Under the pieces are notes generated by a model. It made no database searches, had not been told where the DNA came from, and saw only the letters and a list, made by a program, of their open reading frames with translations. A stretch of DNA of 57,881 nucleotides from Lachnospiraceae bacterium (lineage in GTDB: Bacteria; Bacillota; Clostridia; Lachnospirales; Lachnospiraceae), in assembly GCA_017440375.1 (NCBI GenBank), contig JAFSHK010000014.1, positions 1 through 57,881 of the forward strand, given 5' to 3'. Each line of letters starts with the position of its first letter. Position 1 is the stretch's first letter. Below, in pieces: positions 4,188 to 12,054 of this stretch. A program made the translations under genes and the position numbers.

Positions 4188-4216
4188 TTGCTTTTCTAAA
4201 AAAAGTATTGTATGAT
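4188..4216 (+). promoter_or_regulatory. Sigma-70 promoter of the secreted repeat protein gene
   Basis: TTGCTT (4188-4193) and TATGAT (4211-4216) are spaced by 17 bp. GGAGG at 4258-4262 follows and the ATG is at 4270. The element is divergent from the ABC operon promoter and only about 20 bp away from it. Confidence 0.7.
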
Positions 4217-4269
4217 GAGTTTACATAATCTTATCATTATTGTAACCTATTAATATTGGAGGCATACTT

Positions 4270-5358
4270 ATGAAAAAAAATCGGATTACAAAAATTTTTG
4301 TAACACTCTGCCTTGTACTCGGAATGATACTTCTTCCAACCAATCAATTGAATGTGCAAGCCGCAGAAATTATAGCAACTGTACAGGGTACTGTTCTTTC
4401 CGGAACAACATCTGATATATTACAGCTTTCCACCAAAGATGGAAAAATGGAGATTAAATTAGATAGTGGAACCGATGCCAGTGCTTGTAAGATATTACTT
4501 CCGGGAAAATCCGTGAATGTGTCGGTTTCTCATGGTTCTGACGGGTATCTTCATGCAGTGAAAATCACTACCGGAACACAGACATCTACCGTTTCTGTTG
4601 ATTCATCGAAAACAACCAACGTAACAGGAACTATTAGTGAAAAAACAAACGGCGATATTATATACTTCAATACCGCTCATGGCGAAATGGAAATCAAACT
4701 GGATACTACAACCAACTTGAGCGGATGTAACGTTCTGGTAGCCGGCAAAACATATACAATCAACTGTGCGCGTGGCTCTGATGCTTATATGCATGCCTTG
4801 AGTATTACCGATGCAGCTTCTGTAAGTACAGGAAGTTCAACAAGCACCTCTACTTCCGGTTCCGGCTTAACTCCGGCACCTGCAACAAATGCAAACAGCG
4901 GTATTTCTACTACAACAGTAACCGGTACCGTAACACAGAATACCAAAGAAAATCTTCTGTATTTGTCCACAATTCACGGCGAAATGCAGATTGTTATTGA
5001 CAGCAATACCGATAGCAGAAATGGTTTATTCCTGATACCAGGTCGTAGCTTAACTGTTACTGTTTATCGTGGTAATGATGCTTATATGCATGCTGCAACG
5101 ATTGTAGGTGTGAAAAATGCTGTTGTAACCCCGAGTGTCGATACATCAAAAACTTCCACCGTAACAGGAACTGTAAGTAATAAATCAACAGAAAATGTAC
5201 TTTACTTAAATACATCTTATGGTGAAATGGAGTTGAAATTAGATGCCGTAAGCAGTATCACCAACTGCAAAGTTTTAGTCAGCGGAAAGAAAGTTACTGT
5301 AACCTGTGCAAGGGGCTCTGATGCCTACATGCACGCTATTACCATTAGTGGTTCATAA
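4270..5358 (+). CDS. Secreted protein with four tandem ~66-residue beta-rich repeats
   Basis: Function not recognised. The 362-aa product has a signal peptide (basic start, hydrophobic core at about 8-24, AxA-like site near VQAAE), then four homologous units at about residues 36-101, 116-181, 215-280 and 296-361. Each runs TVTGTV..., an LxLxT strand, HGEMEIKLD, a glycine turn (PGK, AGK, PGR or SGK) and ARGSDAYMHAITI or a close variant. Serine/threonine-rich linkers separate units 1-2, 2-3 and 3-4, the longest at about 182-214. The alternating strand pattern suggests an OB-like or small beta-barrel fold, which is inference. Three units carry a Cys before the glycine turn and two carry CARGSD; unit 3 lacks both. 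It is a single-gene transcription unit with its own promoter and terminator. It could be a cell-wall or ligand-binding protein. Confidence 0.8.
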   Translation: MKKNRITKIFVTLCLVLGMILLPTNQLNVQAAEIIATVQGTVLSGTTSDILQLSTKDGKMEIKLDSGTDASACKILLPGKSVNVSVSHGSDGYLHAVKITTGTQTSTVSVDSSKTTNVTGTISEKTNGDIIYFNTAHGEMEIKLDTTTNLSGCNVLVAGKTYTINCARGSDAYMHALSITDAASVSTGSSTSTSTSGSGLTPAPATNANSGISTTTVTGTVTQNTKENLLYLSTIHGEMQIVIDSNTDSRNGLFLIPGRSLTVTVYRGNDAYMHAATIVGVKNAVVTPSVDTSKTSTVTGTVSNKSTENVLYLNTSYGEMELKLDAVSSITNCKVLVSGKKVTVTCARGSDAYMHAITISGS

Positions 5359-5498: not shown

Positions 5499-6209
5499 AT
5501 GAGCCGTAAAAAATTATTACAATATATTATGGGTATGGAAAATATGGGAACAATAGAAAAACAAAAAGAACTATCAACTATTCCTTTTTGGAATCAACCT
5601 CAGATTATTGCATTGCAAAAAGAACTGGAAACAGAAGCCTTTCGAAAAGACTATGAACAAGCTTGTTTGGCTGTTATTACGAAACTAGAAAAAATGAACT
5701 CAGAAATCTCCACGAGTCTGGATCGTAACATCATAGACTCTATGGAGTGGCGTATAAAAACTCCGGAAAGCTGTATCGCCAAATTATATCTCAAAGGGAA
5801 AGAACTTTCCTTAAACAGTGCTGTAAATCGCTTGAACGATATTGCAGGTGTTCGTGTCGTATGTAATTTTCTGGATGATATGTATATCCTTTGCAGAAAA
5901 ATGGCAACTGACTGCAACTACGAATTTATTAAGCAGAAGGATTATGTGAAAAATCCCAAAAGCAGCGGTTATCAAAGTCTGCACCTGATTCTATATGTTC
6001 CATTATCAAATGGAAAAAAAATAAAAACAGAAATTCAGTTTCGCACGAAAGCAATGGATTTATGGTCTGATATGGAACACCACTTCATTTACAAGAAGGA
6101 AGGCATTCACGAAAAAGACACAGAGCAGGCACTTCGAAAATGTGCCAAGTCTATTTATAAGCTTGATAAAGAAATGATGAACATACGTCGCAAAATGGAA
6201 CAGGAATAA
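5499..6209 (+). CDS. Small alarmone synthetase (GTP pyrophosphokinase, RelQ/YjbM-like)
   Basis: Cytoplasmic (p)ppGpp synthetase that transfers pyrophosphate from ATP to GTP or GDP. It is a stand-alone synthetase domain of 236 aa with no hydrolase HD or TGS/ACT domains, in the usual size range of the family. Visible motifs are RIKTPESCIAKL (ATP side), NDIAGVRVVC, DYVKNPKSSGYQSLHL (the G-loop Tyr/Ser/His region) and EIQFRTKAMDLWSDMEH. The start is uncertain: the ATG at 5499 lacks a clear Shine-Dalgarno, and in-frame ATGs occur up to 5544. The final helix, rich in Lys and Met, resembles the oligomerisation tail of RelQ proteins. The gene is transcribed alone. Confidence 0.9.
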   Translation: MSRKKLLQYIMGMENMGTIEKQKELSTIPFWNQPQIIALQKELETEAFRKDYEQACLAVITKLEKMNSEISTSLDRNIIDSMEWRIKTPESCIAKLYLKGKELSLNSAVNRLNDIAGVRVVCNFLDDMYILCRKMATDCNYEFIKQKDYVKNPKSSGYQSLHLILYVPLSNGKKIKTEIQFRTKAMDLWSDMEHHFIYKKEGIHEKDTEQALRKCAKSIYKLDKEMMNIRRKMEQE

Positions 6210-6220
6210 TTTTGCCCAGT

Positions 6221-6298
6221 GTTAAGATTACGTTAATTTGGTGTTAATAACTTGTTTCCTTTTCGTTCAGCTTCCGTTAAGAAAACCGTTTATCTATT
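6221..6298 (+). promoter_or_regulatory. Six tandem 11-bp GTTAA-type repeats (OmpR/PhoB-family operator array)
   Basis: Units start at 6221, 6232, 6243, 6254, 6265 and 6276, all beginning GTT: GTTAAGATTAC, GTTAATTTGGT, GTTAATAACTT, GTTTCCTTTTC, GTTCAGCTTCC, GTTAAGAAAAC. A seventh, one base out of phase, begins at 6288. An 11-bp period on one face of the helix is typical of direct-repeat sites bound by winged-helix response regulators. The array ends where the -35 of the following promoter should be. The neighbouring KdpE-like regulator is the natural candidate to bind it, which is inference. Confidence 0.75.
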
Positions 6299-6319: not shown

Positions 6320-6325
6320 TATAAT
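6320..6325 (+). promoter_or_regulatory. -10 element of an activator-type promoter
   Basis: A perfect TATAAT with no recognisable -35 at the 17-bp position (TTTCAT). It lies 44 bp from the start of the last in-phase repeat and about 35 bp before the ATG at 6360. The same 44-bp distance is seen in front of the second peptide gene. Confidence 0.65.
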
Positions 6326-6359: not shown

Positions 6360-6503
6360 ATGAATCCTGGTATGCTTATTATCGCAATTATCGGCGGTGC
6401 CGCTGGACTTTTAAGCACAATCTATCTGCTTTTCAGCTTACCTGCTGTTATCGTATGGAAAATCTATCGTCATTTTCGTTATGGATATTCTTTAAATGAT
6501 TAA
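6360..6503 (+). CDS. 47-residue membrane peptide under the 11-bp repeat array
   Basis: Function not recognised. The product has a hydrophobic stretch from about residue 4 to 34, long enough for one tilted helix or a tight hairpin, and a short basic C-terminus (WKIYRHFRYGYSLND). The ATG at 6360 is chosen because GAGGGG lies eight bases upstream and because a longer reading frame from 6252 would run through the operator array and promoter. It has a tandem-repeat operator, an activator-type promoter and a strong terminator, so it is a dedicated transcription unit for one peptide. A functional link to the second peptide at 8212-8304 is inferred from shared regulatory layout, not from sequence similarity. 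Confidence 0.7.
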   Translation: MNPGMLIIAIIGGAAGLLSTIYLLFSLPAVIVWKIYRHFRYGYSLND

Positions 6504-8211: not shown

Positions 8212-8304
8212 TTATTTTGCTTTATTTGCCACCAAGGAGTATACCAAACATCCTCCTAACGCTACAAATACAACTCCAACGATAAGAATTTCTACAATGC
8301 CCAT
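8212..8304 (-). CDS. 30-residue KdpF-like membrane peptide
   Basis: A short gene with a very strong Shine-Dalgarno (GGAGGAGG eight bases before the ATG at 8304) and its own terminator. The peptide is MGIVEILIVGVVFVALGG followed by CLVYSLVANKAK. It is a single hydrophobic helix with a short basic tail. Length, composition and the LVY(A/S)L signature near the C-terminus resemble KdpF, the small stabilising subunit of the KdpFABC potassium pump. No kdpA, kdpB or kdpC gene lies nearby, but a KdpD/KdpE-like pair is divergently encoded at 8566. The match rests on reading a 30-residue sequence and convergence is possible. It could be a free-standing regulator of another K+ transporter. Confidence 0.7.
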   Translation of the reverse strand: MGIVEILIVGVVFVALGGCLVYSLVANKAK

Positions 8305-8336
8305 TTATAATTCCTCCTCCACTCTATTTTATGAAA

Positions 8337-8342
8337 ATACTA
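8337..8342 (-). promoter_or_regulatory. Extended -10 element of the KdpF-like peptide promoter
   Basis: On the minus strand the sequence reads TGTTAGTAT, an extended -10 (TGn plus TAGTAT at 8342-8337), with no good -35. It begins 44 bp from the start of the last 11-bp repeat (8386), the same distance as in front of the 47-aa peptide. The leader is about 27 bases. Confidence 0.55.
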
Positions 8343-8375
8343 ACATAAGGATTTCTTATTTTACAGTATTTGCAA

Positions 8376-8463
8376 CGTTTTTTAGCATTTGTTTAGCGTA
8401 ATCTTGACGATTTATTTGCGTTCTCTTGGCATTTTCTTTACCCTTTCTTAGCAAGTTTTTAAC
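8376..8463 (-). promoter_or_regulatory. Eight tandem 11-bp repeats (operator array) between the peptide and kdpDE-like genes
   Basis: Read on the minus strand from 8463, eight consecutive 11-mers begin GTTAA, GCTAA, GTAAA, GCCAA, GCAAA, GTCAA, GCTAA, GCTAA. In each, base 1 is G and bases 4-5 are AA. The unit GTCAAGATTAC followed by GCTAA closely matches GTTAAGATTAC followed by GTTAA at 6221. The array lies in the intergenic space between the minus-strand peptide and the plus-strand histidine kinase, so one bound regulator could control both. Direct repeats with one helical-turn spacing fit an OmpR/PhoB-type regulator; the KdpE-like protein is the likely ligand. Confidence 0.8.
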
Positions 8464-8495
8464 GTTCTTTTACTGTTCTTTTATGCAAAACAAGT

Positions 8496-8553
8496 TATAA
8501 TAAATGAAGAGAGTCATATTTTAAAAATATATTATGATTGAAACTATAGTTTC
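8496..8553 (+). promoter_or_regulatory. Promoter and leader palindrome of the kdpDE-like operon
   Basis: TATAAT at 8496-8501 has no clear -35, as expected for an activated promoter next to the operator array. A perfect 14-bp palindrome GAAACTATAGTTTC (8540-8553) sits directly before the Shine-Dalgarno GGGGGA of the kinase gene and could be a second operator or an mRNA hairpin. Confidence 0.5.
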
Positions 8554-8565
8554 CGGGGGAATAAT

Positions 8566-9639
8566 ATGTCATCAACACTTAAGAATTTTATATTAACCTT
8601 TTGTGGGTTGGCTGCTGCCACCATCTTTGCATTCTTTTTTTCGCATTTTGCACCGGAAAATTCGGGTAACATCGCACTCATTTATATTTTGGCACTCATT
8701 ATTACAGTCCGCTATACAGATGGTTACTTACCCGGCTTTCTTTTTTCTGTTATTGCGGTTATCTGTGTCAACTACATATTTACATACCCATATTTTGAAC
8801 TCAACTTTACACTTGCCGGTTATCCAATTACTTTTCTGGAGATGTTGGGTGTGGCTCTTCTGACAAGTACTATGACTACGAATCTAAAGCAACAGGCCCA
8901 AATGATTACCGAAAAAGACAAGCTGCTTTCCGAAACAGAGAAGGAAAAAATGCGTGCCAATCTGTTACGTGCCGTTTCCCATGATTTACGTACTCCGCTA
9001 ACCGGTATTATCGGTGCCAGCTCCTCTTATCTGGAAAGTCGTGATATTCTTGCAGAAGAAGAAAAAATTGCAATCGTAACTCACATTCAGGAAGATGCTA
9101 ACTGGCTGCTTAACATGGTAGAAAATCTACTTTCTGTTACGCGCATTCACAACCAGTCTTCTAAAGTAAAGAAAACGGACGAATCCGTAGAAGAAATTGT
9201 ATCCGCCGCAATCCTTCGATTGAAAAAGAGGCTTCCGGATGCATCGGTTACTGTTTCCGTTCCAGATGAGTTACTGATTATTCCAATGGACGCCATTCTG
9301 ATTGAGCAGGTACTGATTAACTTATTAGAAAATGCTATTATCCATGCCCAAAGTACAAAACCAATCCTCTGTTATGTAGAAAATGGAGCCAAATTTGTTA
9401 CGTTCCATGTAAAAGATTTTGGAGTCGGCATCGATCCGGAAAGACTAAGAAATATTTTCGACGGAAATTCATATATTGGAAATTACGAATCAGATTCTAA
9501 CAAAGGCATGGGAATTGGTCTGTCCATTTGCAAAACAATTATTACCGCACACAATGGCACAATTAACGCTCAAAATCATTCGCAGGGAACTGAATTTTAT
9601 TTTACCCTGCCAAAAGAAGAGGTAGCTTATGAATCCTAA
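8566..9639 (+). CDS. KdpD-like sensor histidine kinase lacking the KdpD N-terminal sensor
   Basis: Membrane histidine kinase of 357 aa. The first 105 residues form a four-helix DUF4118 membrane module typical of KdpD (SGNIALIYILALI and GYLPGFLFSVIAVICVNYIF). After it come a coiled linker, the phospho-acceptor box AVSHDLRTPLTGI (His at about 139), the N box LLENAIIHA, and G boxes DFGVGI and GMGIGLSICK. Classical KdpD is about 900 aa and carries an N-terminal KdpD/USP cytosolic module and a GAF region; both are missing here, so only the membrane-kinase core is present. It overlaps the response regulator by 11 bp. The signal is probably K+ or turgor related, inferred from DUF4118 and the adjacent antiporter. 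Confidence 0.88.
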   Translation: MSSTLKNFILTFCGLAAATIFAFFFSHFAPENSGNIALIYILALIITVRYTDGYLPGFLFSVIAVICVNYIFTYPYFELNFTLAGYPITFLEMLGVALLTSTMTTNLKQQAQMITEKDKLLSETEKEKMRANLLRAVSHDLRTPLTGIIGASSSYLESRDILAEEEKIAIVTHIQEDANWLLNMVENLLSVTRIHNQSSKVKKTDESVEEIVSAAILRLKKRLPDASVTVSVPDELLIIPMDAILIEQVLINLLENAIIHAQSTKPILCYVENGAKFVTFHVKDFGVGIDPERLRNIFDGNSYIGNYESDSNKGMGIGLSICKTIITAHNGTINAQNHSQGTEFYFTLPKEEVAYES

Positions 9640-10339
9640 ACATGAAATTCTTTTAATTGAAGATGAAAAAAACATTTGCAACTTTATTGTAACAACTTTA
9701 AAAAGTAATGATTACAAGGTAACTTATGCTCTAAATGCTTCAAGTGGTCTTTCTCTTGCCGCATCCGGCTGTCCCGACTTAATATTGTTGGATTTAGGAC
9801 TGCCTGATATGGATGGCATTGATGTTATCCGTAATATCCGTAATTGGAGCAATGTTCCGATTATTGTCATTTCTGCCAGAACACAGGAAAAGGAAAAGGT
9901 AGAAGCTTTAGATGCCGGTGCCGATGACTATATTACCAAGCCTTTCGGAATCTCCGAGCTTATGGCAAGAATCCGTACCGCTCTTCGCCGTTTCACTCTC
10001 AATAATAACTCAACAATATCGGCACAAAGCATATATTCTGCCAAAGATTTAGTGATTGATTATGAAAAGCATGTTATTACGATTAGCGGAAAGATTATTC
10101 ATTTTACCCAGATAGAGTATAAAATTCTTACCTTCCTTGCCCAGAACGCAGGTAAAGTTATCACTTATGATTCTTTAATTTCTCATATTTGGGGTCCTTT
10201 TGCCGACAGCAACAATCGCATTTTGCGTGTTAATATGGCAAATATCCGCAGAAAATTGGAAAGTAACCCAGCCGATCCCCAATACATTTTTACAGAAATC
10301 GGCATAGGTTACCGTATAATTGATAATGAAAGAATGTAA
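9629..10339 (+). CDS. KdpE-like OmpR/PhoB-family response regulator
   Basis: A 236-aa DNA-binding response regulator. The receiver domain covers about 1-120, with the acidic pair ED at 11-12, phospho-acceptor Asp at about 55 in LILLDLGLPD, and Lys in DYITKPFG. The winged-helix effector domain runs from about 135 to 232 (ITFLAQNAGK-like region, then NRILRVNMANIRRKLE and IGIGYRI). Its start lies inside the end of the kinase gene, so the two are co-translated. Proteins of this subfamily bind direct repeats with one-turn spacing, which matches the arrays at 6221-6298 and 8376-8463. Target genes are inferred. Confidence 0.92.
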   Translation: MNPKHEILLIEDEKNICNFIVTTLKSNDYKVTYALNASSGLSLAASGCPDLILLDLGLPDMDGIDVIRNIRNWSNVPIIVISARTQEKEKVEALDAGADDYITKPFGISELMARIRTALRRFTLNNNSTISAQSIYSAKDLVIDYEKHVITISGKIIHFTQIEYKILTFLAQNAGKVITYDSLISHIWGPFADSNNRILRVNMANIRRKLESNPADPQYIFTEIGIGYRIIDNERM

Positions 10340-10362: not shown

Positions 10363-11961
10363 TTAAACTTCCTGCTCACAGACAACGACAATATCCTTAT
10401 TTCGTATCGTTGTCTGTCCATCAGGAATAATCGTTTCTTCCGCCCTTCGAATCATCGTCACAAGCGTATTCTGCGATAAATCAAGTTCCATAATTTTCTT
10501 GTCACACCAGGAATGATTTTTATCAATAGCGATTTCTTGAAGCTTCACTTCATTATCCGCATTATAGTAAGGCACATTCAAAATGAGATTGTCCCCTGCC
10601 AGAATTTTCGTATCGCCTTTCGGAATCAACGTCTCTCCATCTCTTTTGATCATAACAGCAAGCGAATTAGATGGAAGTGAAACATCTTTTATCATGCGAT
10701 TTTCCCAGTTATGTCCTTCATGAATGTACATACGCAACAACGTTATTGCTGTCTCTTCCTGATAATCATTGAAAGTCTTCCGAATATCACTATCATTATC
10801 GACCATATCTAATTTTCTCGCCACCATCGGAAGCAAAGAACCTTGTAATGCTACCGAGAATAAAGATACCAGAAAGACAATGTGGAAAAGATCATTCTCC
10901 AAAGTTACTCCCTGTGCAATTACCATAATCGCAAATACGATAGATGCCGCACCTCTAAGTCCTGCAAAAGAAACAAGCGCGCATTGCCGTAGCGAAGCCC
11001 GAAACGGCATAAGAATAGCCATAACCGAAGCAGGTCTTGCTATAAAATTCAAAATAACAGCAATTATTATTGCGGGCACAAGTACTTGCGGTAATTTATG
11101 CGGGAATGCTAAAAGTCCCAATAAAAAGAACAAACAAATCTGAGCAAGACCGGTAATTCCATCAAAAAAATGGACTAATACGGCTTTATTTTTCAATTTA
11201 CTGTTTCCCAGAATAATGCCTGCCATATATACGCTTAAATATCCGTTGCCCCCCGTAAGTGCAGGCAATGCATAAGCAAGCAGCGCAATACCAATCATGA
11301 AAATCATATCCAGATTTTCTGCTTCAATAGAAAATTTGCGCATCAACCAGATAGCCGCAATAGCCACACCCAAACCAAAAAGGACACCAAAGACGATCTG
11401 GGCAAAAATCATATAGGGAATGGAATTCTGCGCATTCCCCTGAATCAAAGCAAGCCCAATCATTGTCAACATATATGCTATCGGGTCATTACTACCACTT
11501 TCAATTTCCAAGAGAGGTGCCGTCGCATTTTTTAAACTCAGATTCTTGGAACGCAAAATAGAAAACACCGAAGCCGCATCGGTAGAACTAATAACTGCTC
11601 CAATCAAAAAGCTTTCTGCCCAATCGACCCTTAAAACAAAATGACATAAGACACAAGTGATACCTGCTGTCAAAATAACGCCTAACGTAGACATCATAAC
11701 CGCTTTACCAATAACCGGTTTAGCTGCTTCCCATTTGACACAGAATCCACCATAAAACATGATAAAAATAAGTGCAATACTACAAACACGCTCTGTCAGC
11801 TGATAATCCTCAAAATTAATTCGGAAAATACCATCCGAGCCAAACATCATACCAATTAACATGAACAATAAAAGAGCCGGTACACCTACCTTAGAAGAAA
11901 ATCGCCCAAAAAATACACATACCAAAATGACGATTGCACATAGTAATAATAAAAAATTCAT
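10363..11961 (-). CDS. K+/H+ antiporter (CPA1, NhaP2/CvrA-like) with C-terminal TrkA-C domains
   Basis: Membrane cation/proton antiporter of 532 aa. Residues 1-385 form about 12 helices, with the conserved SSTDAASVFSIL and EIESGSNDPIAYMLT segments of CPA1 exchangers (acidic residues of the ion site). The C-terminal 140 residues hold two RCK-C/TrkA-C-like units (SLPSNSLAVMIKRDGETLIP and a second LSQNTLVTMIRRAEETIIP), which in relatives bind nucleotides and gate potassium efflux. ATG 11961 is preferred over 11991 because AAGGAAGG lies just upstream of it. It converges on the kdpDE-like operon with only 23 bp between stops. Its promoter and a partial copy of the 11-bp motif are described separately. 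Confidence 0.88.
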   Translation of the reverse strand: MNFLLLLCAIVILVCVFFGRFSSKVGVPALLLFMLIGMMFGSDGIFRINFEDYQLTERVCSIALIFIMFYGGFCVKWEAAKPVIGKAVMMSTLGVILTAGITCVLCHFVLRVDWAESFLIGAVISSTDAASVFSILRSKNLSLKNATAPLLEIESGSNDPIAYMLTMIGLALIQGNAQNSIPYMIFAQIVFGVLFGLGVAIAAIWLMRKFSIEAENLDMIFMIGIALLAYALPALTGGNGYLSVYMAGIILGNSKLKNKAVLVHFFDGITGLAQICLFFLLGLLAFPHKLPQVLVPAIIIAVILNFIARPASVMAILMPFRASLRQCALVSFAGLRGAASIVFAIMVIAQGVTLENDLFHIVFLVSLFSVALQGSLLPMVARKLDMVDNDSDIRKTFNDYQEETAITLLRMYIHEGHNWENRMIKDVSLPSNSLAVMIKRDGETLIPKGDTKILAGDNLILNVPYYNADNEVKLQEIAIDKNHSWCDKKIMELDLSQNTLVTMIRRAEETIIPDGQTTIRNKDIVVVCEQEV

Positions 11962-12054
11962 GTTTACCTTCCTTTCATGCCATATCCCCAATGATGTTTT
12001 ACATTCTTTAGTCTAGCATAAACATATGCGCATTTCTACATAGAATTTACCACC

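Follow-up and report, generated by a model that had tools for sequence, protein, structure and literature searches.

A conserved row of 11-bp half-sites as a predicted extended operator of a KdpDE-like two-component system in Lachnospiraceae

An eight-unit row between two predicted promoters

The window (the whole stretch of DNA analyzed here, 57,881 nucleotides) derives from a draft Lachnospiraceae genome (G000; 1.94 Mb, 68% complete) and carries, between a two-component operon and a divergent peptide gene, a core row of eight 11-bp units at positions 8376 to 8463 on the minus strand. Read directly from 8463 down to 8376, the contiguous units are GTTAAAAACTT, GCTAAGAAAGG, GTAAAGAAAAT, GCCAAGAGAAC, GCAAATAAATC, GTCAAGATTAC, GCTAAACAAAT, and GCTAAAAAACG; all eight have G at position 1 and AA at positions 4 and 5, G(Y)(N)AA, as the earlier note had described, and orthologous arrays occur in relatives. 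Two weak in-phase units (8464 to 8485, minus strand; 3.3 and 1.5 bits) extend the row on the kinase side, and a degenerate unit at 8365 to 8375 followed by GTAAAATAAGA at 8354 to 8364 (both minus strand) lies on the peptide side, the latter overlapping the predicted peptide −35 (TGTAAA, 8365 to 8360). The histidine kinase (8566 to 9639, plus strand; 357 aa) has DUF4118, HisKA, and HATPase domains and is KdpD-like without the KdpD sensor domain, and it is followed by an OmpR/PhoB-family response regulator nearest to KdpE (9629 to 10339, plus strand; 236 aa); their predicted −10, TATAAT (8496 to 8501, plus strand), lies 32 bp away from the edge of the core row. Peptide 2 (MGIVEILIVGVVFVALGGCLVYSLVANKAK), a 30-aa predicted membrane peptide, is encoded divergently from the kinase at 8212 to 8304 on the minus strand, and the predicted −10 of its operon is TAGTAT (8337 to 8342, minus strand).

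A second array of six in-phase 11-bp units, of which the fourth and fifth are degenerate, occupies positions 6221 to 6286 on the plus strand, ahead of a predicted −10, TATAAT (6320 to 6325, plus strand), and of peptide 3 (6360 to 6503, plus strand), a 47-aa predicted membrane peptide. The two rows have a unit in common, present once in each (GTTAAGATTAC at 6221 and GTCAAGATTAC at 8398 to 8408), and the distance to the −10, measured from the G that opens the last unit, is 44 bp at both (from 8386 to TAGTAT at 8342 and, in the sixth unit, from 6276 to TATAAT at 6320); both points had been claimed beforehand and hold. Directly 5′ of the second array lies a gene (5499 to 6209, plus strand) for a RelA/SpoT-domain protein with the size of a small alarmone synthetase.

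Within the core row, a period of 11 was the sole outlier (0.651; other periods between 5 and 15, at most 0.49), and the block at 8376 to 8463 ranked first in the window at every length from 5 to 10 units. A chance origin was ruled out by dinucleotide shuffling of positions 8321 to 8520, since at 6, 8, or 10 units none of 500 shuffles scored as high as the actual sequence. The row is absent from the output of Tandem Repeats Finder because its units are too diverged. The unit matrix, derived from 62 units in ten arrays of this same locus type, reads approximately G-Y-T-A-A-R-A-A-A-A-Y at 9.5 bits per unit. These units are 11-bp head-to-tail half-sites of the OmpR/PhoB type (GYTAARA; YTTARC on the kinase strand), and the row they form has the head-to-tail half-sites at 10 to 11 bp that mark operators of this family.

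Conservation of the row and of its promoter distances

Kinase relatives were collected by a named-genome scan (327 found, best 80 kept; mostly Lachnospiraceae metagenome assemblies), and a search of 79 genomes at the protein level yielded 15 close matches to the kinase, including the window's own, at 74 to 100% identity. In a quick tree of 81 kinases, 24 (the window and 23 loci) formed one group with an SH-aLRT value of 100; L101, which a contig end truncates, was excluded from the clade counts, leaving 23 loci. Related genomes carry the same row between the pair of truncated KdpD-like kinase and KdpE-like regulator and divergent genes for peptides of 27 to 30 aa. The 17 clade loci with a peptide gene had 4 to 9 counted units (six or more in 15 of 17), versus 0, 0, 0, 3, 3, and 4 units in the six loci without one (Fisher P = 0.0003); peptide loss accompanies row shortening in no more than three independent contrasts, which all point the same way (sign test P = 0.25), and a single deletion could have removed peptides and distal units at once. 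At three clade loci lacking the peptides (L097, L099, and L104), the row is replaced by two units in opposite orientation (12.4 bits).

Among 14 six-unit arrays, unit identity was 0.75 at the same position versus 0.60 at different positions, indicating that each unit has been kept in place and not homogenized; in the same arrays, G1, T3, and R6 were as conserved as the A columns. On the peptide side, all 17 peptide loci had a TANNNT sequence at offset 44 (the last unit of L110 being assigned by hand in this count, since its spacer unit scores positive), versus at most six loci for any other offset from 20 to 69, and a TGTAAA- or TGTTAA-like sequence occupied the peptide −35 position in most relatives. 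On the kinase side, the −10 (ATTATA on the minus strand) lies 32 bp from the core row in the window; in ten further loci of the clade the gap is 33 to 34 bp, with L090 measured after its two weak units were added back. This gap is out of line with the clade in L111 (63 bp), the script picked up a nearer hexamer in L098 and L106, and ATTATA was sought and found absent in six clade arrays (L093 to L096, L100, and L105). Row length varies by whole units, since the window and L090 exceed the six-unit rows by two units at unchanged promoter distances.

The row before peptide 3 was compared in 15 copies from 14 distinct loci, and its best in-phase score always fell at offset 44 among the 12 offsets tried. 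It is complete with six units in 12 of the 14 loci, L110 and L111 keeping the last four only, and peptide 3 directly adjoins the peptide operon in several relatives.

A two-unit box at the kinase promoter of wider relatives

Beyond the clade, 57 of the best 80 of 327 relatives were wider loci with kinase identities of 54 to 65%, and 30 of these had a two-unit box 5′ of the kinase, scored where the best adjacent unit pair exceeded the 99th percentile of base-shuffled controls; at the other 27 of these Lachnospiraceae loci, no box above this shuffle threshold was found. The gap from the box to the kinase ATTATA was 32 or 33 bp in 17 of the 30 boxed loci, 43 or 44 bp in nine, and 52 bp in one, and ATTATA was not found in three. 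The genes neighboring the kinase differ among the wider loci, indicating that the box travels with the kinase. The plain boxes of two units before the kinase in these loci indicate that a standard OmpR/PhoB-type box was lengthened in one clade. Regulators were extracted from 70 of the 81 loci, and their recognition region, mostly NN[RQ]ILRVNMANIRRK, differed little between loci with a long row and those with a short box (L127, whose extracted region is not a regulator helix, was outside this comparison).

Three small membrane peptides

Peptide 2 is often preceded in relatives by a 27-aa peptide (MQxDxWS...GFFGGIWYEHK). The pN/pS values were 0.11/0.62 for the 27-aa peptide (12 loci) and 0.18/0.68 for both peptide 2 (13 loci) and peptide 3 (11 loci), in loci drawn from 24 searched with strict patterns; by this sequence-based measure, all three small peptides are under purifying selection. 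No Pfam or NCBIfam family was above its cutoff for any of the three, and no match for peptide 2 was found among solved structures. Peptide 2 was considered as KdpF and rejected, no PF09604 match being found at the locus at E values up to 10 in 11 genomes. Six weak PF09604 matches elsewhere were inspected, of which one fell in an unrelated short frame and five in one family, which we take, by eye, to be PspC-like. In L160 (about 4200 to 4440; 54% kinase identity), a gene divergent from the kinase encodes a peptide resembling the 27-aa one and adjoins a weak two-unit box, and the pairing of peptide and box may therefore predate the long row.

Relation of the kinase-regulator pair to the Kdp system

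The regulator scored 240.2 bits against the NCBIfam KdpE model, which is below the cutoff of 325 and still the best among the 25 models listed, and its best relative of solved structure was Escherichia coli KdpE. The kinase scored 171.6 bits against the KdpD model (cutoff, 1123); only DUF4118 and the kinase domains were above cutoff in it, and the N-terminal sensor domain of KdpD was not found. Of 77 genus genomes, KdpA was above cutoff in two, the 68% complete draft of the window (G000) not being one of them. One genome, G086, contains both the long row and kdpFABC; its kdpFABC comes with its own large KdpD-like gene (read by eye; the stretch ends within it), and no array was found in the 400 bp before kdpF, where the best single unit scored 8.7 bits. 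The kinase-regulator pair is thus a separate system, Kdp-like in parts and in site geometry and not canonical Kdp, and no linkage of the pair to kdpFABC was found among the 77 genus genomes or at the G086 locus. The description "KdpE-like" thus fits as far as the best solved relative and the equal half-site period go, while it falls short at the KdpE and KdpD cutoffs, the KdpD sensor domain, and the tie to kdpFABC. A small membrane-like open frame lies 5′ of kdpF in both Kdp-pump genus genomes (L240 and L241).

Directly 3′ of the regulator in the window lies a K+/H+ antiporter gene (10363 to 11991, minus strand), which is over the cutoff of NCBIfam PRK05326 and has two TrkA_C stretches. This family (cluster C17) was near six loci among the best 80 of 327 relatives, plus the window, so that a K+ transporter as a common neighbor of the row was rejected and the association is suggestive only. 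In L152, the antiporter gene is divergent and stands beside the two-unit box, and genes that we take, by eye, to be TrkA/TrkH-like lie near two clade loci.

Genome-wide search and boxes before an MscS-type channel gene

A four-unit model derived from these arrays was applied to 16 genomes, with at most 150 candidates scored per genome. All 12 hits with E values up to 0.0011 fell at this locus, including two from a G026 contig that breaks off next to the row and encodes the 27-aa peptide; no other long row in the 16 genomes was among these hits. The model scored some true rows poorly (G031, E = 0.34), and no gene was common to the ten weaker hits examined.

A strict two-unit pattern occurred at six places in 10 genomes, versus three for the reversed control, and four of the six lay directly before the same gene, which Pfam identified as a mechanosensitive channel of the MscS kind. 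This gene was present in 8 of 18 genomes, G000 not being among them, and a two-unit box (13.9 to 17.3 bits) lay within the upstream stretch of about 100 bp in seven of the eight (L242 to L247 and L249), which are not seven independent cases since six of the genomes are near relatives. Six of these boxes stand 15 to 16 bp before the start codon and the seventh 91 bp before it, and in every case the box is 3′ of a −10-like sequence (read by eye), just downstream of the predicted promoter. From this position, a bound regulator would repress the gene, and the MscS gene is a likely repressed target on this reading of the sequence. The MscS box points to osmotic or potassium control.

Comparison with known operators

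According to the available portion of the source, the E. coli KdpE site at kdpFABC consists of two 6-bp repeats with a 5-bp spacing, located at −72 to −50 (PMC3264566). It resembles the row in its head-to-tail half-sites 11 bp apart (TTTATA and TTTACA, versus YTTARC on the kinase strand of the window), in its related regulator, and in a position comparable to that of the kinase-promoter box in the window, whereas it has two half-sites only, serves a K+ pump, and is not a bidirectional row. Known KdpE sites are indeed shorter, as had been claimed, with 23 bp in E. coli and 22 bp in Mycobacterium smegmatis in the accessible text of the sources.

That OmpR-family operators can exceed two repeats is already known from the accessible parts of the papers. 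E. coli ArcA operators have two to five direct repeats, with footprint length set by the outermost repeats (PMC3798270), and share with the row the extra direct repeats at 11 bp beyond a dimer site; in contrast, ArcA is mostly a repressor, and its operators are not a single row of six to eight units between divergent promoters. Streptomyces PhoP operators, both simple and complex, likewise have a variable number of 11-nt units, four at glpQ1 and five at glpQ2 (PMC7866108, PMC4415409), but five (glpQ2) is the largest number described there, and the consensus is GTTCACC. The closest motif in the available text, DRTTAAGNWWW repeated at 11 nt, belongs to Clostridioides difficile RR_1586 (PMC6222199), which differs in having two units and other targets, the likeness being one of motif. 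What is new, and goes beyond the ArcA and PhoP descriptions in these portions of the literature, is the conserved run of six to eight contiguous units common to two divergent promoters, together with a nearby second row built on the same plan. A literature search with little reach into subscription journals found no such KdpE-like array.

A predicted extended operator and its alternatives

We consider it probable, judging from sequence comparison, that the row is an extended operator to which the neighboring KdpE-like regulator binds, controlling its own operon and the peptides. Comparison lends good support to the earlier proposal that the regulator controls itself and the peptide from one site: distances to both promoters are fixed, a two-unit box at the kinase promoter is older, and peptide 3 has a row built alike. 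The earlier reading as a whole is upheld in part, the binding being a prediction.

Another OmpR/PhoB-family regulator of the genome might instead bind the row and control the pair from outside, considering that the TTAAG core at an 11-bp period resembles the repeated DRTTAAGNWWW of C. difficile RR_1586 (PMC6222199) and that GTTAAN6GTTAA is a term found in SaeR papers, in the accessible parts of these sources. However, the box accompanies this kinase through changes of its other neighbors, and the recognition helix of the cognate regulator is constant, so we regard an outside regulator as unlikely. It is very improbable that the row acts as curved DNA with phased A-tracts, or as an UP element, and boosts the promoters without a specific protein: A-runs do recur every 11 bp in the core units, but the equal conservation of G1, T3, and R6 with the A columns argues against this, as do the two-unit boxes and the T-rich second row, which lack phased A-tracts and yet keep the core and the distance. 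The least credence is given to a decoy that soaks up the regulator and sets a threshold and is not a site for activating the peptides; the units exceed the need of a dimer and lie beside the regulator's own promoter, whereas the exact 44-bp spacing to the peptide −10 is repeated at peptide 3 and the rows are shorter where the peptides are gone.

With the row as an extended operator of its neighboring regulator, phosphorylated regulator would fill neighboring half-sites, and we infer that this filling is cooperative; for the E. coli KdpE DNA-binding domain on two half-sites, the available portion of the report describes no significant cooperativity (PMC3264566). The filled row would activate the kinase-regulator operon from an edge 32 to 34 bp from the −10, and its opposite end, with the last unit 44 bp from the −10, would activate the divergent peptide operon, probably via RNA polymerase contact just upstream of the −35. 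The second row would serve peptide 3 likewise, and the two-unit box just past the MscS promoter would repress the channel gene. Two units would be enough for autoregulation, the long row being meant for the peptides. The theme of the regulon is probably osmotic or K+ balance, and feedback of the peptides on the kinase is our guess. A more far-reaching version can be put forward only tentatively, as a possibility: with the row as template, six to eight or more subunits of phosphorylated regulator would line up without a gap to form a near-digital two-promoter switch, the three peptides would feed back on the truncated kinase, and MscS would be shut, giving a self-contained osmotic module apart from the Kdp pump.

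No published target of this two-component system was found in the literature, and a set made up of the system itself, the three membrane peptides, and the MscS channel of some species represents the first predicted regulon for this widespread Lachnospiraceae system. Moreover, the loci form a graded natural series with 0, 2, 3, 4, and 6 or more units at the same place and with both promoter distances fixed, which allows one to ask what extra half-sites do for a response regulator.
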